Below, one piece after another: positions 6,410 through 39,480 of a stretch of 64,000 nt of DNA. A program made the position numbers and the translations under genes. The notes under the pieces are model-generated. The model saw only the letters and a program-made list of their open reading frames with translations, did not search any database and was not told the origin of the DNA. Position 1 is the stretch's first letter. Each line of letters starts with the position of its first letter. The DNA is from Polytrichum commune (lineage: Eukaryota > Streptophyta > Polytrichopsida > Polytrichales > Polytrichaceae): positions 25,730,001-25,794,000 of the forward strand of contig OX485803.1 of assembly GCA_950295325.1 (NCBI GenBank), read 5' to 3'.

Positions 6410-7258
6410 TAAGGAGGGTGTGGGGCGGACGGGGGACGAGGGTGGGGCGGACGGGGGTGGGGGGGGGAACGGAGCGGACGGGGTCGGGAACGGGGGCGGG
6501 AATTGGGGGGGGGGGGAACGGAGCGGACGGGGTTGGGAACGGGGGCGGACGGGGGGGAACGGGAGCGGACGGAGGGGGGGGGAATTTTTTTTTTAAATGG
6601 GGCGGACGGGGAAGGGGGGGGGGGGAAACTGGGGCGGATGGGGGAGCGGACGGGGGTGAACGGGGCGCGAACGGGGGGGAACAGGGCGTACGGGGTTGGG
6701 AACGGAGCGAACGGGGGGGAACGGGGCGTACGGGGTTGGGAACGGAGCGGACGGGGTCGGGGTCGGGAACGGAGCGGACGGGGCCGGGAACGGAGCGGAC
6801 GGGGGGGGGGGAATTTTTTTAAAAAAAATTTGGGGCGGACGGGGAAGGGAGAAAAAAAAACCTGGGGCGGACGGGGGGGAACGGGGCGTACGGGGTTGGG
6901 AACGGAGCGGACGGGGTCGGGAACGGGGGCGGACGGGGTCGGGAACGGGGGCGGACGGGGTCGGGAACGGGGGCGGACAGGGGGGAACGGGAGCGGACGG
7001 AGGGGGGGGAATTTTTTTTTAAAAATGGGGCGGACGGGGAAGGGGGAAAAAAAAAAAAAAAAAAAAAAAAACTGGGGCGGACGGGGGAGCGGACGGGGGA
7101 GCGGACGGGGGAGCGGACGGGGGAGCGGACGGGGGAGCGGACAGGGGAGCGGACGGAGGGGCGGATGGAGGGGCGGACGGGGGGGAACGGGGCGTACGGG
7201 GTTGGGAACGGAGCGGACGGGGTCGGGAACAGGGGCGGACGGGGGGGCGGACGGGCTC
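6410..7258 (+). repeat. G-rich strand-asymmetric minisatellite
   Basis: Repeated variants of GGAGCGGACGGGG, GGTCGGGAAC and GGGGGCGGAC, broken by blocks of A and T runs. The plus strand is almost free of C except in CGGAC. Closely spaced runs of three or more G give strong G-quadruplex potential. The frames it opens (Gly/Arg/Thr-rich) are by-products of the repeat. Confidence 0.9.
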
Positions 7259-20480: not shown

Positions 20481-21032
20481 AGTAAGTCTTGTATCAATAG
20501 AAGAGATAATTGTACCAAGTATTTTAGAGAGGACTAATCATTTGACAATAGGGATGCATGTCAGTGAGAAGTTTATATATTTCAGTACGTGAAGGATTGT
20601 TGGTGTATTTGAAGGTTTATAAAACCTAACACTATATTCGTTAATCGGAGACTTTTGAAAGTCTCAAAATAAAATATGCCCATAGTTTGGGATGCCAATA
20701 TTGTGGGCATATGGAATGTTGGGAACATCAAGAACATGACAATTTAAAAATTCGCACGTAAAGAATATTCCTAATACTAAAAATAGAAAATTGCAATTAT
20801 AATGAAAACGTGAACTCCATGTGGAAAATAACAAGCGAATATAAAAAACAAATGGTTTATGTCATTATAGAGTTTGGGGTGCGCATCCCATAAGTAAGGT
20901 TCTTATGGTTTTGGATGGCACATCCCAAACGTATACCACAATGGAGTGTGACAAGTCTACTAAGTCTATTAAAAACCAAGACTACTAAGTACTAATGTTT
21001 TTTCCCGCCGTTAACTTTCACCTATGTTATGT
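20480..21032. other. 3' flank of the DUF7869-like gene, no gene seen
   Basis: AT-rich, with a small hairpin (ATGCCCATAG...TGTGGGCAT near 20678-20712). It should include the 3' untranslated region of the minus-strand gene. No element terminus could be recognised. Confidence 0.4.
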
Positions 21033-24000
21033 TTACCCATCTCCATCTTCCGCTTCATATCCATTCTCGGCGTCATTTTCCGCAGCTGCAATACGTGCCA
21101 AGTTGTCTTTGGCAAAATCTATATGTTTTTGGGGGATGGTCATTGCTTCTGTGTTGGAACCTTTGCGCGGCTTCCAAGCACAAAGTATAGTATCCGTGTT
21201 TATCCAAACCGGTGTGTACGCTGAGTCCACTGTCCACTTAAAATTCTTTTTGGTGTCCCAACCTAAATAAGTGCGGAGCACGTTGTGGTCTTTAGTGCTT
21301 GGACGACAATATTCCACCTCAATTTGACGAAAGTTGGGGCTAGTTCGAACAAAATTGGGTGAAGACAATGCTTTTACCAACCAAATTGGCTTGGGATGCT
21401 CCTCATCCCCAGCTCGTACGAGGACCAAATACCCTTCATGGCAATCAACACCTACACGAAACGACGGTGCCGGTCGATTGCGGGCAGGGCCAACGTAATG
21501 CTCGTCCATTGCGAACTCTTCACGAACGTCTCCATTGCTGAAAAACATAGTATCGGACTCGACAACCGTCAAACGACTTTGTGGCCAAAATCCTTGTGTC
21601 AAAGTCGTACGGGTGTCGCCACCAAGTGTCATCAAGGCTGAGCGAATGCGATCCCAATACGCGATCAACGGTTCATGGGTATCTCTAACACGTCTTGTGA
21701 TGTCCTCCTCGCACAACTCTTTCCAATATTCAATGAATCCGGATATGCCTTTGATGATTTCCGGCCCATTCCTCATGGGTTCGGGTTTGCAAGGCTTTGG
21801 TTCCCCATCCGGGACCAAACATTTCCCATCATTGTCTTGACGCCATACGAGTATACCATCATCCGGGCCCCAATTAGGAGATGTGCACAAAAGCTTGAAT
21901 TGCATGGCCGGGAGACCATCGTCCCTCATATAAAATCGGAATTGTTGTGCTTTGGTATGCCCCACCAAACGGTCCCCTCCCTTCAACATGTATGGCTTGA
22001 TGAAGGCCTTGAAATTTGGTACTTCCTCAATCAAGTGCGGAATTACTGGCATATGGTCCAAATCCATATACGATTTCATAAGAAGAGGTATGGTTGGAAA
22101 ATCTTCTTCATGCAACTTCATGCTCCACCGTCCGAATGATGCATCAATGTCGTCGTGTGTATGTCCCACCATCAAGAAAGACACAAACACCTCCTTGAAG
22201 ATTCCTTTCGCCACGAGCAATGACCAAAAACAAAATACGTATCGACATTTGTTGTCCTTCGCACAATTATCAAGTTGAACGTGGAGAGTTGGAGGCAATG
22301 GTTTTGCACAAATGGGCTCTCCGGGTGGTTCTGGCAATGACGACATACAAACCTCCTTCCCCAAAAGCACTGCCTCATAAAGGGATGTGGTTCCACAACC
22401 ATCAAAAAGTGCACGGGAAGAATGTACCGGTGGCTTCTCAAGATCGCGCAACAGTTTTGCAAATGAACCCACCGTGTGGTTAGCATCCCCAGGGTAAAAA
22501 TCCAAACCATAATGGGCATACTTTACGTCCCCATGGCCGTGGGCAATCATACCTGGAAAAAACAAACGATGCGTGACCAAAATAATCAAATAACCACTAA
22601 ACGGATGTATGGAGTTGGACATTTGCCAAACACACCCAAGAAAATTGGATAGACTTTAAACACGTAGTTGTGATTTCATACAAACCTGTGACAGCTACGG
22701 GCAACTTGAAGAGACCATCCGTGGCCTTTATTTTGCGTGCATAACAAGGGCATGCGGTCTTGGCGTGGTCCATTTTATCATGGATGACTGTTAGAACCTC
22801 TGTGGGCCTCATTATGGATAGAGCACGATTCTTATAGTAATCTTGACGGTGTGCCTCTTGATTGTTGACATGTTCAATATATTTTTTCTGGTGTCTGGAA
22901 TGAGATTCAGTGCCTATGGGGTGGGCGTCTCGAAGACCTTTGTATTTTTCACACGTCGTACATCTAGCGAACTTGTCCCCGGGTCTTTTCAGAATGTATT
23001 CCGCAAACTGCTGGTTTTTAATCACACTCAACTTGGACAAAGAAATGGGCCCACATCCCGCTATGCGACCCACTTCATTGATGTCCGTTAAGATGTTCTT
23101 CCATTTTGTGCCCGTGGGCAACACCATTTGAACAACCTTCTCCCCTGACGACAATGTCCTCGTCTTGTGGGGCATTGCATCGGCCAATGGCACTATGATG
23201 GTGGATAGTGTCGCGGACGCTTGCAGTGTAGCCTCCCTAGGTTTCTTTGTGCCCGAGTTGCCATGAAATCGAGAGCGGCGACCCAACGATGAATATTTTC
23301 GAAACCTATAAAAGTCAGCCTTGGAGACGGCGTGGATGGTATACCACGCTGTACAACACACATCAACATTCTCAAGTGTCACCACCTTATGCCCATGGGT
23401 ATCAAGGTGCAAATTTCTGTGGACCTCGAGTTTCTTAGCCGACCTCATACGAAAATCCGCAAGCCACATCTCTTGACGCAGAGATCTAATTTTCTCCCGC
23501 GGGAAAAATTGGCAACATTTCCTCGCGCAACAATCCTTGCCGGACACTAGACGGATAGATTCGTCCCCCAAAAGCCGATCCCGTCGACGCTCCTTATCTC
23601 CGCGAGGCACACGGTTTGAATCATATCTACGGAGGCCTTTGCGAGGACGTGTTGTGGCCAACAAAGCTAATTGTGTTTGCTTATGCCGCCGCTCATGATC
23701 CCACAAACTCACTTCCTCATGTAGAACTCGACGAAGCGGCCATCGACGCAAGGAAAATCTCCATGTCACCGGGAACTCTACCGGAAGCAAAGAGTTCAAG
23801 ATGCACACGCCAACATCATCGAGACCTAGGGCGTTGGCATCGACACAATCACGGGGATTGGAGTTTCTACATATACCATCTGCCACCGGGACACCAACCT
23901 CGTTGAGTAGAACGACATCAAGGCCAACCCATTGCTCCCTCCCGAAACCGGCACACAACGGAATGTCATCGTGGTCATCTCCGGAATGCAGAGATTGTTC

Positions 24001-24162
24001 GTGGACTTCCAAAGATTCATGGGAGGATGTATCCACAAACACCCCCCTCACGTTTGGCACACCATTACTATCTGCCGACGGGGAAGACAGTTCACATTCA
24101 GCATCGGATGACGATGCATACGTCGACAACTCCAATGAACTATCACCCACATGCAACGCCAT
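21033..24162 (-). CDS. DUF7869-like, DDE/RNase H-fold transposase-derived protein (two exons)
   Basis: Exon 1 is 24162-22686 and exon 2 is 22552-21033 on the minus strand. Joining them across a GT-AG intron keeps the frame and gives 998 residues ending in TAA. The N-terminal fifth is acidic and Ser-rich. A Cys cluster (CCARKCC, about residue 208) is followed by FPREKIRSLRQ. CTTCEKYKGL and HDKMDHAKTACP precede the splice point. Exon 2 carries QLDNCAKDNKCRYV (about residue 586) and VGHTHDDIDASFGRW (about 623), the hallmark segments of DUF7869-type proteins; their acidic residues suit a DDE nuclease core. A C-terminal domain with GYLVLVR, YLGWD and ILCAWKPRK follows, then an acidic tail. The family is common in transposon-like genes of plants and animals. 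I chose the ATG at 24162; an in-frame ATG at 24339 would add 59 unlikely residues. The frame is intact, so it may be active or domesticated. Family assignment is by motif memory. Confidence 0.7.
22553..22685 (-). other. intron of the DUF7869-like gene
   Basis: Minus-strand donor CACAG|GTTTGTA and acceptor TTTTTTCCAG|GTATGATTG. It is 133 bases and splits a Gly codon, so V-T-G-M-I-A is restored in frame. Unlike the introns of the plus-strand gene it contains no palindrome. Confidence 0.75.
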
Positions 24163-24487
24163 ACAGCCTAGACCAACCACCAGGACATGATCAACCCAAC
24201 CACCACCGCAATGCATACAAGAGAGGATAGAATATATGTGGAGATAAATGGCCCAAAATTGACAAACAAATTTTGGTGCACCATTGGAGAACCTCACGCA
24301 CAAAGACGAACGCGCGTCCCAAAAAAACGTTTTAAGCATACGTCTAGGTTGTTCACTAATGTAAACAATACATGGACAAAGATGAGAACACTCGTTAGTC
24401 GTCCAGGAGGGCCCTGCTGTTCGGACCAGCGCCTGTCCACATACAACCGACGACGAAATCAGAAATCCGAGAACGCCACATGCATTT

Positions 24488-24503
24488 ACGAACGCGCGTT
24501 CGT
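24488..24503. repeat. 16-base palindrome ACGAACG-CG-CGTTCGT
   Basis: Exact member of the locus-specific palindrome family, 5' of the minus-strand gene. It aligns with the diverged copy at 33880 in intron 3 of the plus-strand gene. Confidence 0.95.
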
Positions 24504-24761
24504 GACCTCAGTAACTTCTCCATGTACATCCGGCGGCCTTCGAGATCCCTCAAATGAGAGCACCCTGAGGAATATCGGTTTTGTAGGTCAAAGTACCATG
24601 TTGACTTAGGAACCTGCGCGATATACTATCACAAGAGAACACTTGTCCATACGCACAAAATTAGCAAATCTGCAGATGATGCCTGAATCAACTCCAACAA
24701 TATTTTGAACACTGAGCACCTCCATATTGTGAATTTGATTATGTTGACTTTTGCGTACCTA

Positions 24762-24791
24762 CCCATTTACGAACGGACGTTCGTAAATGGG
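24762..24791. repeat. 30-base palindrome with ACGAACG-GA-CGTTCGT core
   Basis: Arms CCCATTTACGAACG and its complement are perfect around a central GA. This is the longest perfect copy of the family. Confidence 0.95.
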
Positions 24792-24928
24792 TGCGACCCC
24801 GTGTTCACATCCTTCACGGACGAGCGATGAGCATATTTTTCTTGCTATTCTGTGTTCGTAAATTACTGCCATACTGATGTGCATGAATGAAGATGTGTTG
24901 CTGGATGCGTAGACAATAATGACATGTA

Positions 24929-25559
24929 TTTATGAACGAACGTTCGTAAATTCCCGACCATCAGGTAACAATAGATACGGGTCAAATAAGTATGTATGAT
25001 CCTCGAAGGCATATTTACGAACGCACGTTCGTAAATGACTGTCATGGATTAAGTGCATGTGACTAACCATATGAGTACCTCAATCCAGAACATGCTCTCA
25101 TGTGGGATTTACGAACGCACGTTCGTAAATTACCGACCAACAGGTACCAATAGACAAGGGTCAAATATGTATGTATGAAACTCGAAGGCATATTTACGAA
25201 CGCACGTTCGTAAATAAATGCCATGGATGATGTGCATGTGACTATCCATGAGTAGCTCAATCCAAAACATGATCTCCTGTGGGATTTACGAACGCACGTT
25301 CGTAAATTACCGACCATCAGGTACCAATAGATAAGGGTCAAATATGTCTGCATGGTCCTCGAAGGCATATTTACGAACGCACGTTCGTAAATAACTGAGA
25401 TGGATTACGTGCATGTGACTATCCATATGAGTAGCCCAATCCAGAACATGCTCTCATGTGGAATTTACGAACGCGCGTTCGTAAATCCTTGCCATGTCCA
25501 GGTCCGAATCGTTTGTCTAAACCTGAAGCTCTTCATCTTTACGAACGTGCGTTCGTAAA
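24929..25559. repeat. tandem array with two palindromes per unit of about 178 bp
   Basis: Palindromes start at 24929, 25014, 25108, 25193, 25285, 25370, 25464 and 25538. Spacings alternate between about 85 and 92-94. The intervening sequences also alternate: type A contains ACCGACCATCAGGTACCAATAGA and TCGAAGGCATA, type B contains GTGCATGTGACTATCCATATGAG and CAGAACATGCTCTCATGTGG. That makes about three higher-order units. The first palindrome has one changed base and the last two have different centres (CG, TG). It lies in the presumed 5' leader of the DUF7869-like gene. Confidence 0.95.
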
Positions 25560-25840
25560 GTTCCGGTATTTACGGCGGTATATGCGGTAGGTACAGCCTG
25601 TACTGTACCTGGGTGGTGTAGGGTTGGCGCACACGAAATGGCTTGAGCGCGTTCGGTGAGGTCTGTAGAGCGCACACTTGCATGTGCCGCTGAAAAGAGC
25701 TTTGTTGTGGGGGGAAGAGCTTTAAGTACTTCACCCCGCTGGTTCAAAATCCCTTGGATGCTCTTTAAAAAGCAGATTCCCGCCGCCTTCTTTGACCTAA
25801 CAATCTCCCATTCCATCCATGCGGAATTATATAAATAGCA
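25560..25840 (-). promoter_or_regulatory. possible promoter/5' leader region of the DUF7869-like gene
   Basis: GC-richer than the flank beyond it. On the minus strand it contains CTTTTTAAAGAGC, which could serve as a TATA-like element, before transcription toward 24.2 kb. If so, the palindrome array would be in the 5' leader. Positional inference only. Confidence 0.25.
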
Positions 25841-25935
25841 TTGTCATGTATGGAACATGCCTTGCATGCACGCCAACATATTGAAAATATATAAATCGGT
25901 TGCACACCTTAGTTGTGACCAAGGTCTCATCGAAA

Positions 25936-25948
25936 TATATGTATATAC

Positions 25949-25980
<32 letters not shown>
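25936..25980. repeat. (AT)n microsatellite
   Basis: Long alternating AT with a few ACGT interruptions. Confidence 0.95.
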
Positions 25981-25985
<5 letters not shown>

Positions 25986-26097
25986 ATGTCTAAATATGGA
26001 GATGGTTAACATTGAATATTTAATGATTTGCGACTAAGGTATGAAGTCCAAGTTAATTGACAATTGATGCCTAATAAAGTTATGAATGTCGAAGTCA

Positions 26098-26100
26098 TAG

Positions 26101-26141
<41 letters not shown>

Positions 26142-26144
26142 CAA
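26098..26144. repeat. (AT)n(AC)n compound microsatellite
   Basis: An alternating AT run passes into an alternating AC run. Confidence 0.95.
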
Positions 26145-27117
26145 TGAGGTCAGAGTGGCTAAGAAACATGTTGCGGACGCCCCTAAAATTATAGGTATCA
26201 TATGTTTCACATCAAAAAATGACCGTAATATGGTCACCAAGTGCATGAATACAACTAAAAAATCGGGTTAATCCATAATGGCTTGCACTAGGGTAGATTG
26301 AGGACACTATGAACTAATTATACCTAATAATATATGTAAGTTAGGTCTTCTTTCAAATGGTATCTAGGTGTGAAAATAAGGAATTAAAATGGCATGAGTA
26401 GGAAGGATTAATCAATTTGTAATGCTGCATAGTATGATAGCGTAATGATCATTGAGACTTGAAACCATACTAGCTACCGTAACGTTGAATCATAGTTACA
26501 ATTATTATGTGTTTGACGTCCTATTGGAAATTGAATTTTCGTCCACTTGTTGTAAGGGTACGGATACACATTGGTTAAATGTTTATTAGATCATTGGTGA
26601 TATTTATAGTGGAATGCATTGTTCGATTGTTAGTTTAAGTTGACACATGATTAAATGAGTTGAGGTCCTATTGGAAATAGACTTTTAGGGTTTGGGGAAA
26701 TGCACTATTAATTTGGAATGGTGCATACAATAGTATGTACTTACAATTAATATATGTTTTGCATCCTATGAGAAGGATGTGCATCATCATAGCTTAAAAT
26801 GTTGATATAAATTGAAGTCTTAAGACATGCATGTTATTATAATAAGATCGTGGATTGTGTGATGAAATTTCACTCAGAACTATTAAGGTGAAAGTGGGAA
26901 TATTTGAAATTTCACTTATCACTTAAACCAAAGTTTTATCTCAAATCTATTAATTTGGAATGTGAAATTGACAATTGCCATCATTATCAATTATTATAGT
27001 TGTTATGAACGGAATTAAGCATTCTCCATCCAACCAACATTGGTAGACCAATTTGACCTGCCCTCAGAAAACAACATGGCCACATATAAGAAAGGTTGGT
27101 AAGATAAAAAGATGCAG

Positions 27118-27192
27118 GGATGTAGGGTTTAGGGTTTGCGGTTAGGGTTTAGGGTAAGGGTTTGGGGGTAGGGTTTAGGGGTTTAGGGTTTG
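27118..27192 (+). repeat. interstitial telomere-like (TTTAGGG)n tract
   Basis: About ten TTTAGGG or near units (TTTGCGG, TAAGGGT, TTTGGGGG). This is the plant telomere motif, degenerate and internal. Confidence 0.85.
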
Positions 27193-27777
27193 TGAAAGTT
27201 GTGTATGTGGTATTTGGGTTTAGGTTTTAGATTGTTACTAGGATACATTACACACACAAACAATATTGACTCCTCAAAAACCCTTGTAATTGCATTAACT
27301 TCATTCATCGCAAGCTCGTAGTTGATGCTAGCAAAATAGTTGACCACTCCAGAAATGCATTAGTTCAAGCTAACACCTAATATTAGAACTTGAATTGACA
27401 TCCTATCGTATAGCAACTCTGCGCAATCTCATATTATTATGAATTCTTTTTTGCATGTAATATTTATTTGAGGAACCATCGAATTAATTGAAAGATATCT
27501 AGCTCTTACATAAACTATATTTTAAAACACCATATATATATCTTTGGGGGTGGATTCTACATTGACAACCTAGGGAGTGACATGCATTGTCTATTACGAA
27601 TTAACTGAGCATATTTTCCTAAAATATGTTTACAAGGAATCCAAATGTAGAGGTACTAAGGAAATAAAACGAGTAAAATTCATGTATTTGAACTAAGCTT
27701 GTCAAGTTAATGCCTTAAACGCGTCCATTACATATAAATATGTCAAAGCATGAGAATAACATGAAGGGTTCCAATAT

Positions 27778-27862
27778 ACAACCATCTCCCATCTCCCATC
27801 GCATCCCATCCCATCCCATCCCTTCCCATCACCTCCCATACCATCCCATCCCATCTCTCTCC
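27778..27862 (-). repeat. CCCAT/CCATCC microsatellite
   Basis: Tandem CCCAT units with CTCCCAT variants. It is followed by a GC-rich stretch (CGGCGCACC..CCCCGCGCCCC) and AGAGGAGGAGCGGAGCG. It could lie in the promoter of the plus-strand gene, but no core element is certain. Confidence 0.85.
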
Positions 27863-28039
27863 CAACCCTAGCCAGTGGAGTTGTGCCACGTGGCAGGTGC
27901 TGGGAAACCCTAGCGGCGCACCTACCTCCCCGCGCCCCTTCCTCTTCTCCTCATTTGTCATTTCGAGGAGAGGAGGAGCGGAGCGTTTAGAGAGCGAAGC
28001 TCTTGCTTTTTTTAGTCTTGAAGTTTTAAATTAGTTTTG

Positions 28040-28385
28040 TTGCAAGTTTTGAGAGATTTCAGATTGAGAGCTTGTGTGAAAGCTTTTGAGTTTGTGAAAG
28101 CTTTCATTGTGAAAGCTTGTGAGTTTGTGAAAGCTTTCAGTGTGAGAGTTTGTGAGTTTCAAAAGCTTGAGAGCTTGAGTAGGAAAGCTTCAGAGTTTCG
28201 GATTGAGAGCTTGAGGGTGATCTTTAGAAGCTTGAGAGTTTAAGGAAGCTTCAGAGTTGAAGCTTGAGAGTTTAAGGAAGCTTCAGAAGTGAAGCTTGAG
28301 AGTTTAGGGAAGCTTCAGAAGTGAAGCTTGAGAGTTTAGGGAAGCTTGAGAGTTTAGGGTTTGCTTAAGAGTTCAGAAGCTTGAG
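28040..28385 (+). repeat. AAGCTTGAGAGTTT minisatellite
   Basis: Degenerate repeats of GAAGCTTGAGAGTTTAGG and GTGAAAGCTTGTGAGTTT, with AAGCTT recurring about every 20-30 bases. The short frame across it (repeats like VKAFEFVKAF) is a consequence of the repeat. It lies between the presumed promoter and the palindrome-rich leader. Confidence 0.85.
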
Positions 28386-28399
28386 AGCTACAAGGTTGT

Positions 28400-28780
28400 G
28401 AGTTTTGTGTACATAGGAGTATACTAGGGTTTGTATATAAGCTGTGAAGGCTTGAGGTCTGCATTAGAGAGTTATCTGAGTGTGCATTTGAAAGGCAATT
28501 GAGTATGCAGTTGTGAGGATTTCTGGGATTTTCAGAAAGAGAAGAAGCAGGGATTGCAGTGTGCAGCATTTCAATGTAATTTGTTATCCTTTCCAACTCC
28601 TCTCACATTCTGAAAATGTTGCTTCTTGAATTCAATTTCTTTTGTTACATGCAATGTGAACTATCACTCTTTTCTTCATGTTTCATTCTGCATCTCATTC
28701 TGCATCTCAATTGCTTTATGATTGAAGAATTGCATCATTCTGACCAAAATTTTGCAGGCACGGCTGCAAGCAGAGTAACT
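28400..28780 (+). promoter_or_regulatory. possible 5' leader/intron of the plus-strand gene
   Basis: Non-coding and T-rich, ending in a good 3' splice-like signal, AATTTTGCAG|GCACGG near 28757. This is compatible with an untranslated first exon upstream of 29533. No start site can be fixed from sequence alone. Confidence 0.25.
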
Positions 28781-28872
28781 AATAAGTGAGTTATATACAT
28801 ATACGTATATATACGTATTCGTATAAACACGAATACATATATGTACGGACAGGGGATCCCAAAACCATCACA

Positions 28873-29504
28873 TATACGAACGCTCGTTCGTAAATGGACA
28901 TACACTGCATACCCACCTCCATTTACGAACGCTCGTTCGTAAATGGACATACACTGCATACCGAACCTCCATTTACGAACGTGCGTTCGTAAATACGCAC
29001 TCCACGTTCTTTGAGATGATCTATATTTACGAACGCACGTTCGTAAATATACTCAAAATATCACTCAGAAAGAACCTTAACTTAAATATGAACCTCTATG
29101 AATATCTAAAGAACAAATACAATTTTGCGAACACCAATAAGACAAATCACATGTACTTACGAAAGATAAATCAACCAAATATCCGAAAAGATAGACCAAA
29201 TGGACATACTTACGAACGCACGTTCGTAAATGAATCCAAACCTATAAAACCTATATCTTTTACGAACGATCGTTCGTAAAAATAACCAAATATATTACAA
29301 ACACATTCATGACGAGTAGTCTCTTTGATCTTCATATCTTTTACGAACGCTCGTTCGTAAACTCAATACTAAAAATTTATATGATCTTGCAACCCCTCAT
29401 TTACGAGCGAACGTTCGTAAATATAATTACATCAATTGCAAAGACGCATTAACACTGCGTAGTCTGTGGGATATGCATGTCACTTACGAACGTTCGTTCG
29501 TAAA
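28873..29504. repeat. cluster of nine palindromes in the leader of the plus-strand gene
   Basis: Copies start at 28873, 28922, 28972, 29026, 29209, 29259, 29340, 29400 (one mismatch) and 29483. Central dinucleotides are CT, CT, TG, CA, CA, AT, CT, AA and TT. The first two units include a direct repeat of about 50 bases (GGACATACACTGCATACC). The other spacers are unrelated to each other, so only the palindrome is shared. Confidence 0.95.
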
Positions 29505-29512
29505 GTCACTAA

Positions 29513-29532
29513 TTGTTTATATTCTGTTGCAG
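29513..29532 (+). other. 3' splice site just before the chosen start codon
   Basis: A T-rich tract ends in CTGTTGCAG, directly followed by ATGGCAAGA. This implies an upstream untranslated exon. The acceptor lies 28 bases after the palindrome at 29483-29504. Confidence 0.6.
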
Positions 29533-32500
29533 ATGGCAAGATCAAGCAGAAGCGCCATTGAGATGTTCGCGGTGAAGGTCGATGGCCTCCCAGAGTCGGT
29601 GTTAGACGATAACGGCAACGACAACTATGTCCCCAAGGAAGACTTCATGGGGGAGTGGACGGCACTGCCAGAGAAGATCGGGGACGGCCTCTTCTGCATG
29701 CGCTTCACCTACGAGCTGGAGACAAGACCGGACCAGCCCGAACAGTGGGTTCAAATGAAGACGTGGGAGATAGAGTCCATAGAGGCCCAGGGGGAGTATG
29801 TAATTCTGGACATGAAGAACAAGAAGGATCATATCAACCTCTTGTTACATTTTCAGAAAAATACCTTCTCCTACCAATACGCCACCAATAACGTAGCGGA
29901 AGATGCCAAGCACTTCGACCTGGACGGCCTCTTCTCCAAATATGCGTTGAGCCCATACTGGACTGCAAGGAAATTGAACGCCCTGGCATTGAACATCTCC
30001 AAATACAACAGTGTGGTCACTGAGGCAAACAAGAAGAAGAAGAGCCCCAGGAAACCATCCACATCAGGGGCAGGAGGATCTAGAAGTGCACCCAGGCCTG
30101 TGCCTTCCGCTAGCAGGGCGACGGAGGGCCCCAGTAGACACTCCACGCCATCGAAGAGGACAAGGGAGGAGATGGAGAAATCGGGAGTAACGGAGACCGC
30201 AGAGGTGACCTCGCCTGTCGTAATGCCCACCCCCTTGAAAAAGGGTGAGAACCCTGACGCTGTGAAGGCCACGAGGATCCTTCGAGACTTCAACAACTAC
30301 TCGAAGGATTGCTGGCCCATGGGACGCCACTTCACATTCAACGTGGACTGCTTCAAGTGCGAGATGTCCCCCAACAAATGGGTGGTTCGCTCTCGCGAAA
30401 GCGGTGGTGTGAAGTGGCAGATAAATAATCTAATGAACAACGTCAAGTGGGACAGGCAGACCGTCTGCGTCATGCCGAAGGGGCTGACATCCCGTCCGAC
30501 GGAGAAGGACTGGCCACGGATCCAGAATGGAGAGTTCTGGATCATAGACGGCCAACACAGCTTGGAGGCGTCCCAAATAATTCTCAAGGACGACAACTTC
30601 CAGCATGAGCTGAAGGAGGACTTGCGCTACTGGAAGGCGTTCTTGGTGTGGTCGGACGATTGGGACAAGCTGCGGAAGATATCCACCTTCCTCAACTCCG
30701 GCAACAAAATCAAGGCCTTCGAGGCGTCGTGGGCAGCCAACATAGTGGCTGCAAGGGACGTCTGGGTCGCCCATGGGTGCCCCCCTAAAGAAAGGGAGAA
30801 CGCGAAGACGCCGTCTCCACAATGGAAGGTGAGTTTACGAACGAACGTTCGTAAATATCTTTGACATTCAAATTTTCAAGTTCTTTGACATTCAAACTTA
30901 CGAACGTGCGTTCGTATTTTGTGCGTTACTGATGTTTTTCTTGCTGCAGGCATTCTGCGACGCGATGGTGGACAAGTTCTCCTCCATCGACATGAAGTCT
31001 ACAACAACCAAGTCTGTCCTGGAGCTCAAGGGTGAGCTCCGCCTCATCTGTTGCAACAGGGACACTTGGGAGTTGTGGACACAATTTTTTGATGCGCACA
31101 GCTCGGGCGATCTGGTCAACCCCGACACCGAGGAGAAGTACAGCGCGGAGAAGACCGGGGAGGCCCCTCCACTACTGAGGGAGTTCTTCAGGTCCCTTCA
31201 AGGGTTAACAGAGTCCGAGTTGCAGAGGTGCGCGGTGCATCTTCTTGGGAACACTGTGGGAAGAACCATCCCATACCCGAAGATATTTTTGAAGAGGCCA
31301 AGACACAAGCCCGGCACGTATTCCATCAAGGAATGGTGCGAACACCGCAAGCTGAAGACTGCTGCAATGAGGGAGTTGAGCGCCCTAATACCAGAGTACG
31401 CACTCATCCTAACCGACGGGGACGTTAATTGGGCCAGCTGGAAGATGTTCAAGGTCGACTACAACATCTCCGGACCCTCAATGCGTTGTCTTGTCAAGGA
31501 GCACGCCTCCATTTTGAAGCAGAAGGGGAACAAGAGGACAAAGAAAACCGAGACGGATCCCCAAGAGGTGGAGCAATACAGAAGTTTTTTGACGCGGAAG
31601 AGGTTGGCCACATTCGAAGGAGTGGCCAGATTTTGTCTGTTGACAAAAGGAGTGGAGAGGGTGACATTTTCCAAGTGGGACCGGACCATGAGCAGGGCCG
31701 AGGTGAGGGAGGATCGACGGGGGTGCCCATTTGCCCTGATCGATTTCAGGGGGATCCCCGGTGCGTCGAGGCAGGGGGGGAAGGACATACCTTTCTACGA
31801 CCCCTTCATGGCCAAGTTCAAGGAGCACAAGTCTCCGGACATGAGGGAACCTCACGTTTGGCTGTGGATAGTCGAGCAGGAGAAGCTCTCTGCTGTAGTC
31901 GACCTGTACGAGAAGTCGATCAAATTTGAGTACAGCATCTTCCACAGCACTTACGTGCCCGCCAAGACGGAAGGGATCGTGGCCATCAACGAGGCCAGGG
32001 GGAACAAACAGGTGGGGGCGGTCAGCCTCGTCTTCTTGACGTACAACGCGCTGCGGAATGGGCGAGCCCCTGTCAAGGCGAACACTACGTTCAAGAAGAT
32101 CTACAGCATCCCCCATCCCCCTCCCAAGGATCTGCTGCAGGAGACCTTGTACACTGTCTTCCCGGCGATGGAACTCAGGTTGGAGTTCTACGTCTCCGTT
32201 TTGCAGAGCGTGGCAATAAGCGGAGAGACCGTGTACAACGTTTGTGGCGGCAGCAAGTTCATGTACGCTGCGATGGTAAGCTCTCCAACTAATATTTACG
32301 AACGCTCGTTCGTAAAGTTCACCTCAACTTGTCTTGGGTTTGATGACATTGTTTCTCGTCGTTGATGTTTACGAACGCACGTTCGTATTTTCTAACGTAT
32401 TTGCTTGAATCTCATATGCTGGGGCTGGTCGTCAACAGCTTCATTGAAGCCATCGACGAGGAGGACTTCCACGTGCACAGGGCGAAGGCCTCCACGATGG

Positions 32501-35235
32501 ACCTGGAGGACATGTCCCTCCCGAGGACGGACATCAACATGCCCGTCGACGAAGGCATGCCCGCCATGGAGACGGACGACGACGAGCCCGCGCCCTCCTA
32601 CAACGTCGAGGCGATCCTCCGATCCTTGGACGTCACTCCTCTCCGCATTTTGGCGCCGTCGGGAAATCCATCCGACGTGCAAGGGACTCCGGGTGGATAC
32701 ACGGGGTCGTCGGCGGGGACAACCCAAGATGTCCTCCCCGCGAGAACGTCTGGAGCAGAGGCATTCGGCACTCCCGGGGGATGCTCAACATCCGTGTCGC
32801 CCAGGCCGATCGTGGTTCCCAAGATGGAGAACCTCGACCTTCTGGACCAACGGTCCCGACCGACGTTGGACCAGTACCGCAACACGAGGCGGAGGATGAA
32901 GAAGACCCCCTACGTGGAGCTGCCTCCGGGGGCAATCATCGAGGTCTCCGATGAGGACGAGGGCGACATGGAGATCATGGTCGAGCTGGGGGTAGACTTT
33001 GACAAAAACAAGAGGGTCAAAGAGGAGGCGTTGTCCGTCGCCGAGCTTAACGCCAAGCTCGAGCAAAAGATGAAGGAGGACATGGCGAAGGCGGCAGAGG
33101 AGAATGCCAAGAAAATGTTCGCAATTCAGGAGGAGCTGAGGCAGTCGAACAAGAAGACGGACGCCATCCTCGCCATGCTCCAGCGTATGCAGAGCTTCTC
33201 GGCGCCCCCCCAGCCGGCCTACCCCTTCACTGGAGGATACCCCTCCCAATCCCCTCCACCGGGCATGTTCACCGGAGGGCCTTCCCGCCAGCAGGCGCCC
33301 CACCCCACGCCTATTGGCACTCCTCCGCCACCAGAGGTTCCCTCGACCACCTCCCACGATGTTGTGGCGGCGGCCATCCAGGAGGACGAGGATTTACGAA
33401 CGCGCGTTCGTGAATCTTCAGGTCCTCCAGTCCTCACCCCTCCCCCTTCAAGGGTAGGACTGCCCTCATACACCGATGCATCGTCTTTCACCGTCGTCCC
33501 CAGGGTAGTAGACAGACATGGCGATGACTCTGCGCGACACACTGACATGGTCATTGTGGAGGACACGCAGGGGAGCCCCAATGATGCACCAGGGGTGCAT
33601 GGGATGGACGTGGAAGAAACCCATGCGGCGTGGATGGAGGATGTCAGGATGGACGCGCTCGACCTGGGCGCCGAGGAAGAAGACGCGCTGCGCATCCAGG
33701 CGACACAGGCCTCTCAACCGGAGCGTGAGGCAGAGGCCATGGAGACAGAGGCGGCTGCAGCTGTGGAGGTTACGAACGCGCGTTCGTTAATCGTTGAGGA
33801 GGGACCTGCTGCTCGGTCCAGCGCCGCTACCCCTCCCCCCGATGACGAGGTAACTCTCCTCTGAGAATACCATTTTTTAACGAACGCGAGTTCGTAACCT
33901 CTCTAACATCGCGATGTTTTTATCTTCATCGACATCCAGTGGCCTTGCGAGAGCCCTCTTCAGCGGTCCCCCTTAGGGCCGAACAGTTTTGTAGGACACG
34001 GCATCATTTTGCCTTAGGAAAATGTGATAGACTATCACGTGAGAAATGTAAATATTCAACGGATTAATATATGAGCCTATGTTATCTGCATCGCGTTGCT
34101 TCAAATTCTCTGCCCTCGACCCCTTCTCGTATGTTGTATATGTTGATGAGATTATGTTGATTCTTGCATACCCACCTCATTCGCGAACGCTCGTTCGTGA
34201 AAGGCTGCGACCCACTGTCCACCTCATTCGCGAATGACCGCTCATTAATGTACGTGTAGCCGCGCTCACGAACGAGCGCTCGTAAATGATGCGCACCGCC
34301 CCCGCAGCCTTCATTCACGAACGCTCGTTCGCAAGTGTGCCCTTGAGCACATTTTCCTTGCACTCTCCTCACTTCCTCGTCTTTCCCCATAATGCACCGT
34401 CTTCATTTTCTACGCAAAATTTCATTATTGGATCATAGAATTAAACTAGTCGCGTTGTTCATCACAGGACCCCCCGGAGATTGGTCGCAACCCCTCTACC
34501 AGTGGACCTCCCACCCGGAACAAACCTTTCATCGTTTTTGACCTCAACGGGGTGTTGTGTCACACCCAACACATCCCAAGGGTCCCCACGCGTCCCTTCC
34601 GTCACCCCGACGAAAGGGACTACGACGGCGAGCTCGACACCCTCATTAACCGCAAGGCTGTCCGCGCCCGTCCCGGCTTGCGTGACTTCCTTCGCGAGGT
34701 GGTCGAGTTCGCTCACGTCATTGTGTGGAGCTCCATGTTCATGGAGAACACCGAGCCCATCGTGCACTTCTTGTTCCGCGATCTCCCGAGCCCTTGCCTC
34801 GTCCTCGGCCAAGAGGACTGCGACGAGCTGCTCGACGAGAAAGGTCAACCGGTGCCCAAGTTTGGCGGTCGGGGCGGAGGACAACAGTTCCTCAAGGTCC
34901 TCCGCTCGAGACTCTGGCGAGGCGTCCCCCGTCTGCAAGGGACGCCGCACGGGTGGTGGCCGACTCCAGAGAACACCGTCCTCATCGACGACAGCCCCAC
35001 CAAGAGCGTCTTGAACCCCCCGGGCAACGTCATCTTCCCAGACACTTGGACCGGCGATAGGCAAGACACATTTTTGGTCGATAGGCTAGCCCCCTACCTT
35101 AGAAGGCTCGTGCTCCACGCCGGTAGCATACCATTTTTTGTTAGGTCCAACCCCTTCGGCAATGCGGCGCTAAGCCCCCGCGATAATGTATTCAAGAGCA
35201 TCATGAGGCTCGCCAAACTCAATAAATTGATTTGA
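29533..35235 (+). CDS. 1,605-residue multidomain protein: DGQH/ParB-like, methyltransferase-like motif, coiled coil, FCP1-like HAD
   Basis: Exons 29533-30828, 30950-32275, 32422-33849 and 34468-35235 join in phase 0 (432+442+476+255 codons). Residues 1-160 are unrecognised. A basic linker (KKKKSPRKPS, PSKRTREEME) suggests nuclear targeting. At about residue 334, FWIIDGQHSLEAS resembles the DGQH/DGHHR motif of ParB/DGQHR-type domains. At about 860, GETVYNVCGGSKFMYAAM recalls the glycine motif of SAM-dependent DNA methyltransferases, without its usual Asp. A charged coiled coil spans about 1070-1134 and a Pro-rich linker follows. The C-terminus has FIVFDLNGVLCHT (about 1370), VWSSM and LIDDSPTKS, the order of motifs in FCP1/NIF-like HAD phosphatases. 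The second acidic residue of the first motif is Asn, as in some plant members. Exons are GC-rich against AT-rich surroundings. The intron 2 acceptor reads TG instead of AG. Exon joining is well supported; the function as one protein is inference. Confidence 0.65.
30829..30949 (+). other. intron 1, with two palindromes
   Basis: AAG|GTGAG donor and TTGCTGCAG|GC acceptor, 121 bases, phase 0. Palindromes at 30834-30855 (centre AA) and 30897-30918 (centre TG, ending CGTATTTT). The second ends 31 bases before the exon. Confidence 0.85.
32276..32421 (+). other. intron 2, with two palindromes and a mutated acceptor
   Basis: ATG|GTAAGC donor. Palindromes at 32295-32316 (CT) and 32368-32389 (CA, ending CGTATTTT as in intron 1). 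The expected acceptor, 32 bases after the second palindrome, reads CATATGCTG|GGGCTG where a CAG would be canonical. The next AG (32438) would leave the exon out of frame. Confidence 0.65.
33393..33414. repeat. palindrome inside coding exon 3
   Basis: Core ACGAACG-CG-CGTTCGT, read in frame as LRTRVRE in a Pro/Ser-rich linker of the multidomain protein. Confidence 0.95.
33770..33790. repeat. second palindrome inside coding exon 3
   Basis: Core ACGAACG-CG-CGTTCGT with TTA...TTAA flanks, read in frame as VTNARSL, about 60 bases before the intron 3 donor. Confidence 0.95.
33850..34467 (+). other. intron 3, with degenerate palindromes
   Basis: GACGAG|GTAACT donor and TTCATCACAG|GACCCC acceptor, 618 bases, phase 0. 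The junction restores PDDE-DPPEIG. It carries at least four imperfect palindromes (about 33878, 34180, 34263 and 34313), several with TTCGCGAACG or TCACGAACG variants. A diverged copy of its first roughly 500 bases lies at 24378-24860. Confidence 0.8.
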
Positions 35236-35346
35236 AATGCCTCCATGTCTTTGCTTGTATCATGTGGTTCACATTTACTAATGCTTGCTTCGTTTTTGGA
35301 TGTCTTTTGTTGTTGTGATTGTTGTTGTTCTTGTTCTTGCCCATAG

Positions 35347-36347
35347 TCTGCCCCCATATGCGACGCCCCTATGGTCGACGGCCCTTCCCGTCCCCTCTCG
35401 CCCCCTGCCTCCCCTTCCCGCGACGTCACGGGCTTCCAATTGCCATCCCTCTACCAGTTCTCGGCGGTCGACGCGGCCTCGGCCGTGGATTACTCCCGCG
35501 ACGTCGGCATCGACGACGGCGTCGTCAACAGCCCGCCCCCACCACTTGTCGCCCGCGCCTACGCCCCGTCGCCCTCCCCCCTCTCCAAGGAGAAACGGAC
35601 GCTCGTTCGTTTGGGACACCTCTCGCCCTCGAGGGACGACGCCGTCGCTCGTCGCGGGCCGAGCCGGCGTCTCCGCATGGAAGGCCCCCGTTGCCACACC
35701 TCCCCCGCCGACTCCGTTCCTCCCCCCGCAACGTCCTCCGCGATCGTGGGCCCTCCACGCCTCGACTCCCCCCCGCCATCCAACATAATTGCAATAGTTC
35801 CATCGGCTCCGGATGCTCCCGTCGACGCCCCCCTCGTTCCCACCGTTCCCCGCATGGACGTCCCCAAAGCCAAGGTGCCCTCCTCAACCCTGAACCCCTT
35901 TCTCGCTTTTGCTTTCCTTGTCTTCCGTTTGCGTGCCGTTCTCTTTACGAGCGCCCATCCCAAACCGCCCTCATTATTTTCCCCACTCCATTCCTATTCT
36001 TATCTTCCTATGACGTTGTTTCGCAGGTGGTTACCCGCTCGCTTGGTGCCCGGCCCTCCTCCACGTCCTCCTTGGATAGGCACGCCCTCAAGGCCGCATC
36101 TTCCGAGTCCGATCGTTGTCTGGCCCTCCGGAGAAGCGCAAGACGTTCCCTTTCGCAAACACCCTCGCATTCTACTTATAATACCACCTCTTACAATTCG
36201 GGAGCGCGTCCTGAAACATGCAAGAACGACACATATTCCTGTCCAGGCAACACACAAGGATACAGTCGTGGGCCTGAGATTTTTAGAGCCATGGAGGCCG
36301 CCAAAAAAAAGGGCTTAGCCGCAAAAAAAAATAATGGGTCGGACTAG
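35347..36347 (+). CDS. hypothetical Pro/Ser-rich protein, two exons (start exon not found)
   Basis: Frame 35347-35874 follows a good acceptor (TTCTTGCCCATAG|TCT) and is joined in phase 0 to 36027-36347 across a GTGCCC...TTTCGCAG intron, giving 282 codons before TAG. Codons are GC-ending like those of the upstream gene. The product is Pro/Ser/Asp-rich, with no recognised domain and a basic tail (AAKKKGLAAKKNNGSD). The first ATG in frame is at 35371. It begins 111 bases after the stop of the multidomain gene and may be a downstream gene or an alternative 3' part of it. A decayed palindrome lies in the coding part at 35591-35610 (read as KRTLVRL) and a half-site lies in the intron. Confidence 0.45.
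35591..35610. repeat. diverged palindrome in coding sequence
   Basis: GAAACGGACGCTCGTTCGTTT differs from the consensus by one or two bases in the left arm. Confidence 0.7.
35875..36026 (+). other. intron of the 35.3-36.3 kb reading frame
   Basis: GCCAAG|GTGCCC donor and GTTTCGCAG|GTGGTT acceptor, 152 bases, phase 0, T/C-rich. It contains the half-palindrome TTTACGAGCGCC near 35944. Confidence 0.6.
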
Positions 36348-36832
36348 TGTGACGTCTAGAAGCGTACTAGTGGGACGGACTCCCTAAATGGGCTTAGGTG
36401 TAGAACATATTTAAGTGCTTACTTTCTATGCTATTCCAAGTTACTCAAGACATTGATGGTATTTCCATTATAATTGTATTTCAATCCCAATTAATTCATT
36501 CAACTTCCATTCATTCTTCGCACCTTCCCTTCCATTCATAACGAGTTGTGATTTCATACGCAACTATTTTCATGTATGCCTCACATTTTTGTTCACTTCC
36601 ATGCCTTTATGTATAATAATAGTAGCATACCATTATACATATGGAATTTTTAGTCGTCATTACTGGTCCAATTTTGAAAGGTGCATCCTTATATAGTCTC
36701 ATAATCAACAAAAAGTCTCCAAATACCGAATATAGTGTTACCTTCTACGGATATAAGTATAAAAGGCATAGCAACAATGACATGGTAGTGCTATTGTAGT
36801 GCCGTAGCATAGCCTAGGTAGGAGAAGAAGTA

Positions 36833-37187
36833 CACTAAATATGATATTTAGTGTCACCAATTCTAATTGTCTTGCTCAATACTAATTGTAAACCGTAGTA
36901 TAAGTGTCACCAACACTAATTGTTAACCCAACATTATTTGGCATTCCTTGTGAATTTTGGGGGGATTATAGATTTACAGTGTTGCAAATACTGTCATTTA
37001 CCAAGTGATTTTTTCATCCAAATTTCACTCATCCATGACAATAGTTCATCACAAGTTGCTGACGAGAGAAGGTAGGGTTTTGGCCAATGGATGAACTCAT
37101 CCATCACCCATGACAATATTTGTTCACTTATTCATAAGAGTGTCATCCAAAAAGTTACCATAGTGGCATTAAATACCATATTTAGTG
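36833..37187. mobile_element. MITE with palindromic ends (CACTAAATA family)
   Basis: Left end CACTAAATATGATATTTAGTG is itself a palindrome. Right end is CATATTTAGTG. TA flanks both ends. The interior shares the CACCAATTCTAATTG and GATTTACAGTGTTGCAA segments with the copies at 43718 and 47844. Confidence 0.75.
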
Positions 37188-37262
37188 TAGTCCTTTTAGC
37201 GGTGGCTGGGATTACCAGAATAAGCTAGTATTGAAGGTACCGGGCCTAAAAAGGCTAACGTA

Positions 37263-37485
37263 CACTAAATATGATATTTAGTGTCACTTATTATTTGGAG
37301 TTACACCGAGCTATTTTTTTCTTACTAATGATGTATTTTTTTACCAAGTAGAGTTGTTAATGTTCTATAATGTCGAAACAACTATTTTGACATTTGTTGC
37401 CAAAATATGAGATACATACGGTAGTAAATAGATATATCATAGCGTACTTCCAAATAGTAAGTGACACTAAATATCATACTTAGTG
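37263..37485. mobile_element. MITE with palindromic ends, short subtype
   Basis: Ends CACTAAATATGATATTTAGTGTCACTTA.. and ..TAAGTGACACTAAATATCATACTTAGTG, TA at both sides, 223 bp. It is nearly the same length as the copy at 54014. Confidence 0.85.
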
Positions 37486-37489
37486 TAGT

Positions 37490-39480
37490 TAGCAATATAG
37501 TAGGGTCCTCTACTTGTAAAGGAAGTAAGTTGCACTAGGAATAAAGCCTTGCACTTGTAGTAAGGTAAGGTGGATGAACATAAGTCATAAACGACAAACA
37601 AGATAACATAAATTGTACTATGAGAGATGGTACTAACCCGGTATTTAACAAACCATGTAGCACTATGAAGGGGTAATGGACGGTCTAATGAAAATGACCA
37701 GTTCTATTAGGGGGCATAATATTCTTCAATATATATCTCAATATACTAATGAATAAATATTATAAAACTAGCAACTCTCGTGTCAAAATGAATACTTGTG
37801 ATGAAGTCATGTTCTATAGAAAATTATCATAGAGCCCCCCCCCCCCTTTAATTTTAATGTTCACTAATGTAATCAAGGACCTCAACTCTTGAATTAATTT
37901 TAAAACATATTATTAATGATGCAATGCATATTTTTCTTGAATGATTTTTATAGATTGCAATTCAGATAGAGCCTAAGGGAGAACCAATGGATACCCTACA
38001 TGCACATCATGTCTCCCTGGGACATGTTAGATATCCTAAGCATCTCATGTTTGATTTCTCACTTCCAACAAGTAATATGATTTAGTGCTTTAAGTACTAG
38101 GTTGAGTATCGTAGACATGGAAACCTCATCTAGTACTCAAAACTCTAAACATAGTTGATGTTTTTTTCCGTAATTGAAGCTTGAGGGCAACACATGCTAA
38201 AAAGCAAATGAATGATCATTCCAAGTATTTTTTTCATTTAGGATTTAGTCTTATTACGACCATTTTTTCATGTCTTTACTTTCCGAATGTAACTATGATT
38301 GACCCCAGATGTAATCAAAGCTTGGCTTATTTGCCTACAACTTGCTTAGATATGTGCTTCAAAAATATAAACAAATGTAATGTGCAGTGTAATATGAGCG
38401 TTGGAGTCCTCAAAATATAAATTTCCCAATTTCATGTATGCTACACTAGACATCTCCAACATCCTCAAATGTGTGAGTTTCATTCCTATTTGCGCTCGTA
38501 TTTATGCTCATAGTCAATTATGTTGAGGGTTTGGCATGCTTTGTTGAGGTGACCTCCCCATGTGTTCATGTCAAGACAATCCTTCAAACTCTCTACGTAG
38601 TTGTCAACTTTAGGTGACGATGACCCTATGAGTTACAATATCTTCTTAATGTGAAATTTTATTTACATTATGACATTTAGCATGGCATGGTGGGATACTT
38701 GAGATGATAGTCAAGTTACGTTTTAGTATATAACAAGAAGATGTTATTGAGCATACTAACGACAAGTGTCATGTGTTTACATTTTAGTATGCAAGAGGAA
38801 GATGTTTTTGAGCATACTAATCCCAAGTGTCATTAGTGTACACTTTACTCAACTTGTAGACAATTGTGTAACATGAGCAGTCACCTCATAACACTATTGA
38901 ACATACTCATGGCAAGATATTAGTAAACGCACTTGAATGCCAAGCGTCATGAGGCCACACTAATAATAGAATTGGTGATCATTAGTATAACCTAGCATAT
39001 GCTTCTAAAAAGGGTAAGTGACTCTATAACACATGTGACACAAAATACCATAAATGATGTAGCTCCATGGCCACAGTGATAGTTAAGTCAACTAAGCTTA
39101 GGACTCAACTCAACTCTTAACTTAACTGCCTCTTGAAGTTGAGTTTAAACTCTTCCTTTCATGATTTGTTCGTTAGGGAGCTATAAGACGCCTTAAGGTC
39201 AAATTATGTCATGCTTAGCTAATCCTAACTCTAGCTAGGTTTAGTGCAACCTCAAATTCTAGTTGACTTTAGGTTAACTAGCACTTCACTGACACTGGTC
39301 GGGACCTAAGGTATGTGGCCCTCATGTAATCACACTTCTCGATGGAATGAACACATGTATATATATTGAGTGATGTATTGCCAATTGCAAAGATGGTAAT
39401 TTAGGGATGTTTCATGAACATGCATCAAGAAAACTTGTGCTATGATGAGATTCGACATCTATGCAAACAATATTTTATGT
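37490..39480. other. AT-rich stretch, no gene seen
   Basis: No supported gene. There is a poly-C run at about 37836. A direct repeat of about 66 bases lies at 38715-38845 (AAGATGTTNTTGAGCATACTAA then CAAGTGTCAT, twice). Confidence 0.6.

Follow-up and report, generated by a model that had tools for sequence, protein, structure and literature searches.

A two-gene DNA transposon of Polytrichum commune with internal palindromic sites that co-diverge with an element-encoded protein

Introduction

Sequence-specific anti-silencing by a transposon-encoded protein whose motifs co-evolve with it is, to our knowledge, known only from the VANDAL elements of Arabidopsis, which are Mutator-like transposons, and their VANC proteins. 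In En/Spm, too, an element protein has short repeated sites, those of TnpA being subterminal; canonical plant CACTA transposons produce a 3-bp target duplication, and ParB-parS systems operate with few sites per replicon. In the VANDAL report (PMC5735166), VANC is described as an anti-silencing protein with family-specific short motifs in noncoding DNA, which lie upstream of one gene and in the introns of others, are often arranged in tandem, differ between related families and co-evolve with VANC; for VANC21 the motif has nine bases, YAGTATTAY, and the copies in an array share one orientation. A second source (PMC12730594) gives target duplications of 2-5 bp for the wider CMCT clade, a C(2)C and H(3-4)H motif between the second D and the last catalytic acid for CMC transposases, and fungal DNA transposons carrying a TET/JBP dioxygenase, a methylcytosine-oxidising enzyme. 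Here we describe a transposon of the moss Polytrichum commune, contained in a stretch of 64,000 nucleotides (contig OX485803.1, positions 25,730,001-25,794,000, hereafter the window), with two divergent genes, A and B, and a dense set of internal palindromes. A first-pass annotation of the window had considered the two genes and the palindromes as one candidate undescribed mobile or selfish system; in the literature searched, no paper naming the DUF7869 domain of gene A and no such system by title was found, and the word "undescribed" fits no further than that.

A mobile unit with defined ends

Inverted repeats were first detected at 20620-20656 and 36711-36747 with both genes between them, close to the positions (20.6-36.5 kb) outside which the first-pass annotation had advised looking for terminal repeats and target duplications. 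Other genomic copies then fixed the ends exactly, and an earlier reading of the duplication as TAA/TTA was dropped. The termini read AACACTATATTCG...CGAATATAGTGTT and are flanked by ACCT on either side. The outer features are as follows (window coordinates).

20628-36739, unstranded: complete transposon of 16,112 bp, with inverted repeats and a 4-bp target site duplication; alignments to other genomic copies end at exactly these bases
20624-20627, unstranded: left target site duplication ACCT, 4 bp, the same as 36740-36743; other copies have their own 4-bp pairs
36740-36743, unstranded: right target site duplication ACCT, 4 bp
20628-20656, plus strand: left terminal inverted repeat AACACTATATTCGTTAATCGGAGACTTTT, 29 bp, CACTA-type
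36711-36739, minus strand: right terminal inverted repeat, minus-strand reading AACACTATATTCGGTATTTGGAGACTTTT

The genome of the window (407.8 Mb, 64 contigs searched) contains 2,093 sites matching the 27-bp core of the terminal repeat with at most two mismatches (control 0) and 5,602 exact copies of the palindrome (reversed control 4). The first 100 palindromes listed of the 5,602 form five clusters, all of them situated close to terminal repeats of the family. The 100 terminal repeats listed include, besides the window, 14 facing plus/minus pairs at distances of 6.8-18.2 kb; 11 of these 14 were fetched, and nine of the 11 places, 15.5-18.2 kb in length, carry both genes together with 17-26 exact palindromes. 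The genes and palindromes thus co-occur as units with common boundaries, and the single large mobile element anticipated in the first-pass annotation is confirmed by its ends, target duplication and genomic copies. A perfect 4-bp duplication accompanies eight of the 11 places and is imperfect in those termed E1, E7 and E8. E7 has retained gene A, six palindromes and only a piece of gene B exon 4, and E8 is devoid of either gene and of the palindrome. ACGAACG is the sole 7-NN-7 palindrome found more than once in each palindrome-bearing element.

Further copies (X1, X2 and X3) are recognisable by one end each. The derivative X4 (G000 C1:639070-648560, L018-L019) is 9.5 kb long, flanked by the duplication CATA and stripped of nearly all coding sequence, but retains 33 palindromes in arrays with spacings of 33-34 bp and about 93 bp, which suggests that sites retained alone act in cis for a trans-acting protein. 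Synonymous divergence (dS) between the window and X3 is 4.2 in gene B exon 1, 0.2 in gene A exon 2 and 0.02 in the 3' part; because dS differs so strongly along the element, the copies are probably mosaics produced by recombination or gene conversion.

Palindromic sites and their conservation

The palindrome ACGAACGNNCGTTCGT (ACGAACG-NN-CGTTCGT) occurs in 23 exact copies, all at positions 24488-33787, against a chance expectation of 0 in the window (100 shuffles); 15 of them, counted by hand, show the longer form TTTACGAACG-NN-CGTTCGTAAA. Seven one-mismatch copies are located at 24932, 29403, 33880, 34183, 34268, 34317 and 35595, and 36 matches with up to three mismatches span 24306-35610, none being present at this threshold in the rest of the 64 kb. 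Within the 64 kb the palindrome family is indeed confined to this segment, as the first-pass annotation had claimed. Its description of the positions as upstream of both genes and between the gene B exons was also correct, but the placement inside exons applies to only two of the 23 exact copies (33396 and 33772, both in frame in gene B exon 3); nine precede gene A, eight precede gene B, and introns 1 and 2 of gene B hold two each. The interior of the element is organized as follows.

21033-22552, minus strand: gene A exon 2, DUF7869 (PF25273, E 5.6e-39), predicted catalytic domain of a DDD transposase
22686-24339, minus strand: gene A exon 1, predicted, with a CxxC...H(6)H finger; start codon at 24339 or 24216
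24488-25556, unstranded: array upstream of gene A, nine exact palindromes and one near copy, partly inside a 179-bp tandem repeat
28876-29501, unstranded: array upstream of gene B, eight exact palindromes and one near copy
29533-30828, plus strand: gene B exon 1, with a weak ParB-like stretch WIIDGQHSLEAS at about 30530-30600
30829-30949, plus strand: gene B intron 1, palindromes at 30837 and 30900, the first directly after the donor
30950-32275, plus strand: gene B exon 2, conserved core for which homologues were found
32276-32418, plus strand: gene B intron 2, palindromes at 32298 and 32371; acceptor without AG in the window copy
32419-33849, plus strand: gene B exon 3, in-frame palindromes at 33396 and 33772, both retained in X3
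33850-34467, plus strand: gene B intron 3, near-palindromes at 33880, 34183, 34268 and 34317
34468-35235, plus strand: gene B exon 4, NIF/FCP-type phosphatase (HAD) domain (PF03031, E 6.6e-16), motif DLNGVL
35595-35610, unstranded: rightmost near-palindrome, about 1.1 kb from the right end

Several sites are embedded in tandem arrays with units of 179 bp and 49 bp, and the half-sites contain CpGs. The sites of the window keep a distance of 3.86 kb from the left and about 1.1 kb from the right end of the element, for which reason a regulatory function fits better than end recognition.

Comparison of element copies demonstrates selection on the sites. In seven copies of intron 1 from several subfamilies, all 588 pairwise cells of the half-sites agree, and the rest of the intron is 63% identical; the corresponding values for intron 2 of the same copies are 99% and 64%. 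Upstream of the genes, pairwise alignments to X3, which may be drawn to the palindromes themselves, gave identities of 96% within and 49% outside the palindromes on the gene A side, and of 86% for the partnered sites and 48% outside on the gene B side. Across 13 elements, 278 exact sites were counted with 14 different spacer dinucleotides (CA being the commonest), together with 99 one-mismatch sites. Fixed arms combined with a varied 2-nt spacer are more in keeping with a protein dimer bound to DNA than with a hairpin in RNA.

The proteins encoded by genes A and B

The minus-strand gene had been correctly recognised at first pass as DUF7869/DDE-like. In its finger, both cysteines and the first histidine are present in 52 of 53 aligned rows and the second histidine in 45 of 53, and two aspartates of exon 2 are found in all 53. 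The structure model of the relative P0002 revealed an RNase H fold; read by eye, this protein has no CxxC between D320 and E402, and its CxxC pair C134/C137 precedes the first D. The ratio of nonsynonymous to synonymous divergence (dN/dS) against X3 is 0.15 for exon 2, the comparison being made without exon 1, which is out of frame in X3. The gene A relatives with an organism name come from mosses only. Gene A is accordingly predicted to be the DDD transposase of the element, which suggests a transposase role for the hitherto unnamed domain DUF7869. With inverted repeats bounding the copies, a target duplication of fixed length and a predicted RNase H-fold transposase with three acidic residues, the assignment of the element as a cut-and-paste DDD/E DNA transposon with two divergent genes is supported.

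Gene B had been annotated as a ParB-like/HAD gene of 1,605 residues. The length has to be revised, as models using AG acceptors and reaching the same end give 1,588-1,601 residues. The defect of one splice acceptor was rightly noted: intron 2 has no AG in the window copy, and six of six other aligned copies have it. In copies E3 and X3 as aligned, the intron-1 acceptor is without AG, and both intron-1 palindromes are kept. Because a CAG acceptor-like site directly precedes the ATG of gene B, the upstream region is probably an intron of the 5' untranslated region, in which the upstream sites would then lie; the heads of the relatives P0097 and P0098 display palindrome-like peptides ahead of a similar start. 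Against X3, dN/dS is 0.02 in exon 1 (with dS saturated), 0.07 in exon 2 and 0.16 in exon 4, and the overall range of 0.02-0.21 for both genes indicates constraint. With dN/dS of about 1.5 at a dS of 0.02, the open reading frame at 35347-36318 is not considered a coding gene.

The HAD part of the annotation holds, and a search of exon 4 against PDB sequences added weak matches to CTD small phosphatases (best E 0.012). The ParB-like part is weak: the relative P0090 gave a PHROG match (E 0.096) and, over the same stretch, matches to the Pfam families DUF6551 (E 0.03) and DUF1015 (E 0.043), and no ParB-like family match was obtained in PHROGs or Pfam on exon 1 of the window's own gene B. The C-terminal half of exon 2 has weak structural matches to the DNA methyltransferase fold, apparently without the usual catalytic motif, which in beta-class or MT-A70 enzymes is DPPY/DPPW, and a profile comparison (p 0.07, control p 0.66) left this similarity weak. 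The structure model of B is poor (mean predicted local distance difference test score, pLDDT, of 46) and unreliable at the ParB-like stretch. Searches of PHROGs, NCBIfam and Pfam provided no confident family name for exons 1-3, no Pfam family reaching the cut-off, and a PDB sequence search with exon 2 and P0090 yielded nothing convincing. Viral contigs searched with exon 2 of gene B, exon 2 of gene A and both palindromes (the second is introduced below) contained no related locus and 0 matches, and prokaryote contigs searched with the gene B alignment gave 53 pattern matches and 0 relatives, which argues against a viral or bacterial source of the element.

Site sequence and B protein change together

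Sixty-one relatives of B were found, many of which are exon 2 reading frames running into introns, so that their tails can be read as translated palindromes. Tails of the window's clade contain YERxFV, TNxRS and RTxVR, and those of a distant clade LGRxTQ, WVxRP and GSxDP. An exact palindrome-derived peptide is present in 30 of the 61 relatives, compared, as controls, with 1 of 85 among gene A relatives and 201 of 12,200 among shuffled proteins. The site classes used for this count and for the tree were picked after viewing the tails; the blind test was a scan of all 65,536 palindromes of the form 8-NN-8. Here TACGAACG-NN-CGTTCGTA ranked top for the near (window's) clade with 11 of 13 proteins, and TTGGGTCG-NN-CGACCCAA, tied with CTGGGTCG-NN-CGACCCAG, for the distant clade with 13 of 41; the best of 3.8 million random 8-NN-8 sequences scored 8 and 6, respectively. 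All three reading frames contribute to the palindrome peptides in both clades. A third site class, ACGACCG-NN-CGGTCGT, is represented by the peptide LRPRGRK in P0095 and P0096 only and is less secure and unconfirmed.

On a maximum-likelihood tree of gene B exon 2 (58 rows, 28 labelled and 30 without a site label) the three site classes need two changes, which is the minimum, compared with a shuffled mean of 10.8 and 0 of 200 shuffles as low. The exon 1 proteins P0094, P0097 and P0098 and rows with a core of fewer than 250 residues were omitted, and P0100, which bears the variant form TTTCGGTCG, was assigned to the distant class.

The distant-clade palindrome TTTGGGTCGNNCGACCCAAA (TTTGGGTCG-NN-CGACCCAAA), predicted from peptides alone, is present at 9,731 sites in the genome of the window, with 0 for the control and a chance expectation of about 0.006 by hand arithmetic. 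A single cluster of these sites was read in DNA over 3.5 kb (locus L048). The B gene present there shares about 35% identity with exon 2 of the window's gene B and 70-75% with the distant clade, and its own exon 2 is interrupted by a frame break. Of the second-palindrome sites, two occupy intron 1, one exact and one near site intron 2, and two fall in frame within the long reading frame that follows intron 2, shortly past which lies one more; the window's palindrome is absent from the 3.5 kb. The neighbouring 0.9 kb on the expected side holds a minus-strand piece 70% identical over 43 residues to exon 1 of the window's gene A. The genome thus appears to harbour another family that shares the divergent layout and has its code rewritten, and site sequence and B protein have co-diverged. 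Elsewhere (G000 C1:616089-617357), 17 distant-class palindromes form an array with a spacing of 78-79 bp, a regularity that exceeds that of the sites in the window's element.

Other features of the window

Just outside the right end, positions 36830-37494 contain a self-palindromic repeat, CACTAAATATGATATTTAGTG, in four related copies, two of which together form a short inverted-repeat unit (37261-37487); this looks like a separate CACTA-type miniature element. A G-rich minisatellite of about 1 kb (6161-7257) consists of 12-67-bp units around GGGGCGGACGGGG with a GC skew of up to 0.3, and further tandem arrays extend over 40400-40974 (204-bp units), 44620-45505 (42-bp units) and 54861-55239 (127-bp units). 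The only RNA gene found in the window with Rfam is a tRNA-Thr (CGT) at 51382-51453 on the minus strand. A 161-residue frame at 10850-11335, minus strand, presumably resembles the end of a pogo/Tigger-type transposase.

Discussion

The explanation we favour, with some reservation, is that an element-encoded dimer, probably of B, binds the sites of its own family and regulates or de-silences that family. That B rather than A is the binder, that it acts as a dimer and that binding affects silencing or transcription are inferred. In this scenario gene A would supply the DDD transposase and a B dimer would recognise the two-fold symmetric sites (10-NN-10). B bound upstream of both genes and in its own introns would most likely keep its family active, either by countering silencing or by activating both genes, and its phosphatase-like tail may perhaps act on RNA polymerase II. 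As the sites contain CpGs, binding may oppose or read methylation. When the specificity of B changes, the sites of the element would change along with it. A more far-reaching version, which we regard as possible, if somewhat less likely than not, is a self-recognition code in which B represents an unnamed protein family with a ParB-like front, a methyltransferase-like core and a phosphatase tail, the sites are rewritten element-wide, including the coding exon, at each change of specificity, and orthogonal families in one genome activate or de-silence only themselves.

The strongest competitor, in our view unlikely, is that the palindromes are bound by the gene A transposase, as internal sites for assembling or regulating transposition in the manner of the TnpA sites of maize En/Spm. 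Gene A and sites are linked in nine of the 11 fetched places, A has the conserved CxxC...H(6)H finger, and fragment E7 combines A and six palindromes with no more of B than the piece of exon 4. However, the sites in the window avoid the element ends, unlike the subterminal TnpA sites, and apart from the array upstream of A they are located around and within gene B; moreover, exon 2 of A is 94-96% identical between subfamilies, whereas the exons of B are 70-95% identical. A function in RNA, as hairpins in introns or leaders that govern how the B transcript is spliced or processed, would accommodate the pair of sites in intron 1, whose first member directly follows the donor, the pair in intron 2, and the retention of these positions in relatives. 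We nevertheless consider it quite improbable, as a hairpin must open its innermost pairs, the short spacer with its 14 dinucleotides in 278 copies suits a DNA-bound dimer, and sites also precede both genes, occur within the reading frame of an exon and persist, 33-fold, in the near-geneless X4.

Two-fold symmetric promoter and intron sites are usual for host factors, so that the palindromes might be hijacked binding sites of a host transcription factor; yet the sites change along the B tree in no more than the minimum two steps, two B lineages that share one genome differ in their sites, and the first 100 sites listed of 5,602 are all clustered near family terminal repeats, which makes a host factor very improbable. 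Least credible to us are functionless passengers of tandem repeats, spread by slippage and gene conversion. The location of several sites in tandem arrays (179-bp and 49-bp units, 33-34 bp spacing in X4) and the mosaic element with its uneven dS would agree with them, but single intron sites hold fixed places with perfect or near-perfect half-sites while their flanks drift to about 63%, and at L048 the site sequence has changed alike in introns and in the coding frame.

Several observations weigh against binding by B and against its extension to a code. The poor structure model of B and its weak ParB and methyltransferase readings gave no DNA-binding part, and gene A, travelling in the same element, would co-diverge with the sites too. 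In the blind scan, the seven B relatives in neither clade gave nothing above control. The third site class has 0 matches in the genome, which says nothing on its presence elsewhere, and the window's site class does not form a single clade in the tree, where P0116 and P0120 join the third class with weak support. The second family was read in DNA at one locus of one genome, and the L048 frame at the position of exon 3 has no detectable similarity to the window's exon 3. Palindromes persist without genes in X4, so that sites need not accompany genes. X3 (L015-L017) is decayed, with two stops in gene A exon 2 and three in gene B exon 2; alignment to it leaves one of nine sites upstream of gene A and three of eight upstream of gene B without a partner, and the possible attraction of these alignments to the palindromes counts on the same side.

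If binding and de-silencing by B hold true, the element would represent a second anti-silencing system, derived from unrelated proteins in another kind of transposon, and self-addressing codes would evolve repeatedly. The two site sets in one genome (5,602 and 9,731) and a specificity predictable from relatives make the joint change of protein and site testable, and natural protein-site pairs might serve as orthogonal DNA-recognition parts.

Among the known systems, CACTA/EnSpm (CMC) transposons share the CACTA...TAGTG in the terminal repeats, the large element with a transposase and a second gene, and short repeated sites. However, the ends read AACACTA...TAGTGTT, with CACTA two bases in; the repeated sites are internal and not subterminal; and the transposase matches DUF7869 and no other Pfam transposase. 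The 4-bp target duplication differs from the 3 bp of canonical plant CACTA elements and falls within the CMCT range as given in PMC12730594, and measured against the CMC motif described there, the gene A relative P0002 has no CxxC between the second and third catalytic acids. By its duplication, AACACTA ends and missing CxxC, the element is not a canonical CACTA transposon. With ParB-parS of bacteria it has in common a site of 16 bp with two-fold symmetry and a protein in which a ParB-like motif is faintly recognisable, but the similarity is below any cut-off, each element has dozens of sites, and there is no ParA partner among the two genes. The fungal TET/JBP transposons, as described in PMC12730594, likewise carry an extra gene that may act on silencing, in contrast to which the present element has an unclassified protein with its own sites. 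Closest is VANC/VANDAL: as portrayed in PMC5735166, it also combines private motifs, dense in noncoding DNA, with co-evolution of motif and element protein. Unlike the VANC21 motif given there, the site of the window's element is two-fold symmetric, and two sites are in coding sequence; for exons 1-3 of gene B no Pfam family reached the cut-off, a result that involved no direct comparison with a VANC sequence. We therefore do not class the element as a VANC member, given the other transposon type, the symmetric site and no shared family found, but regard VANC, by analogy, as its closest working model.

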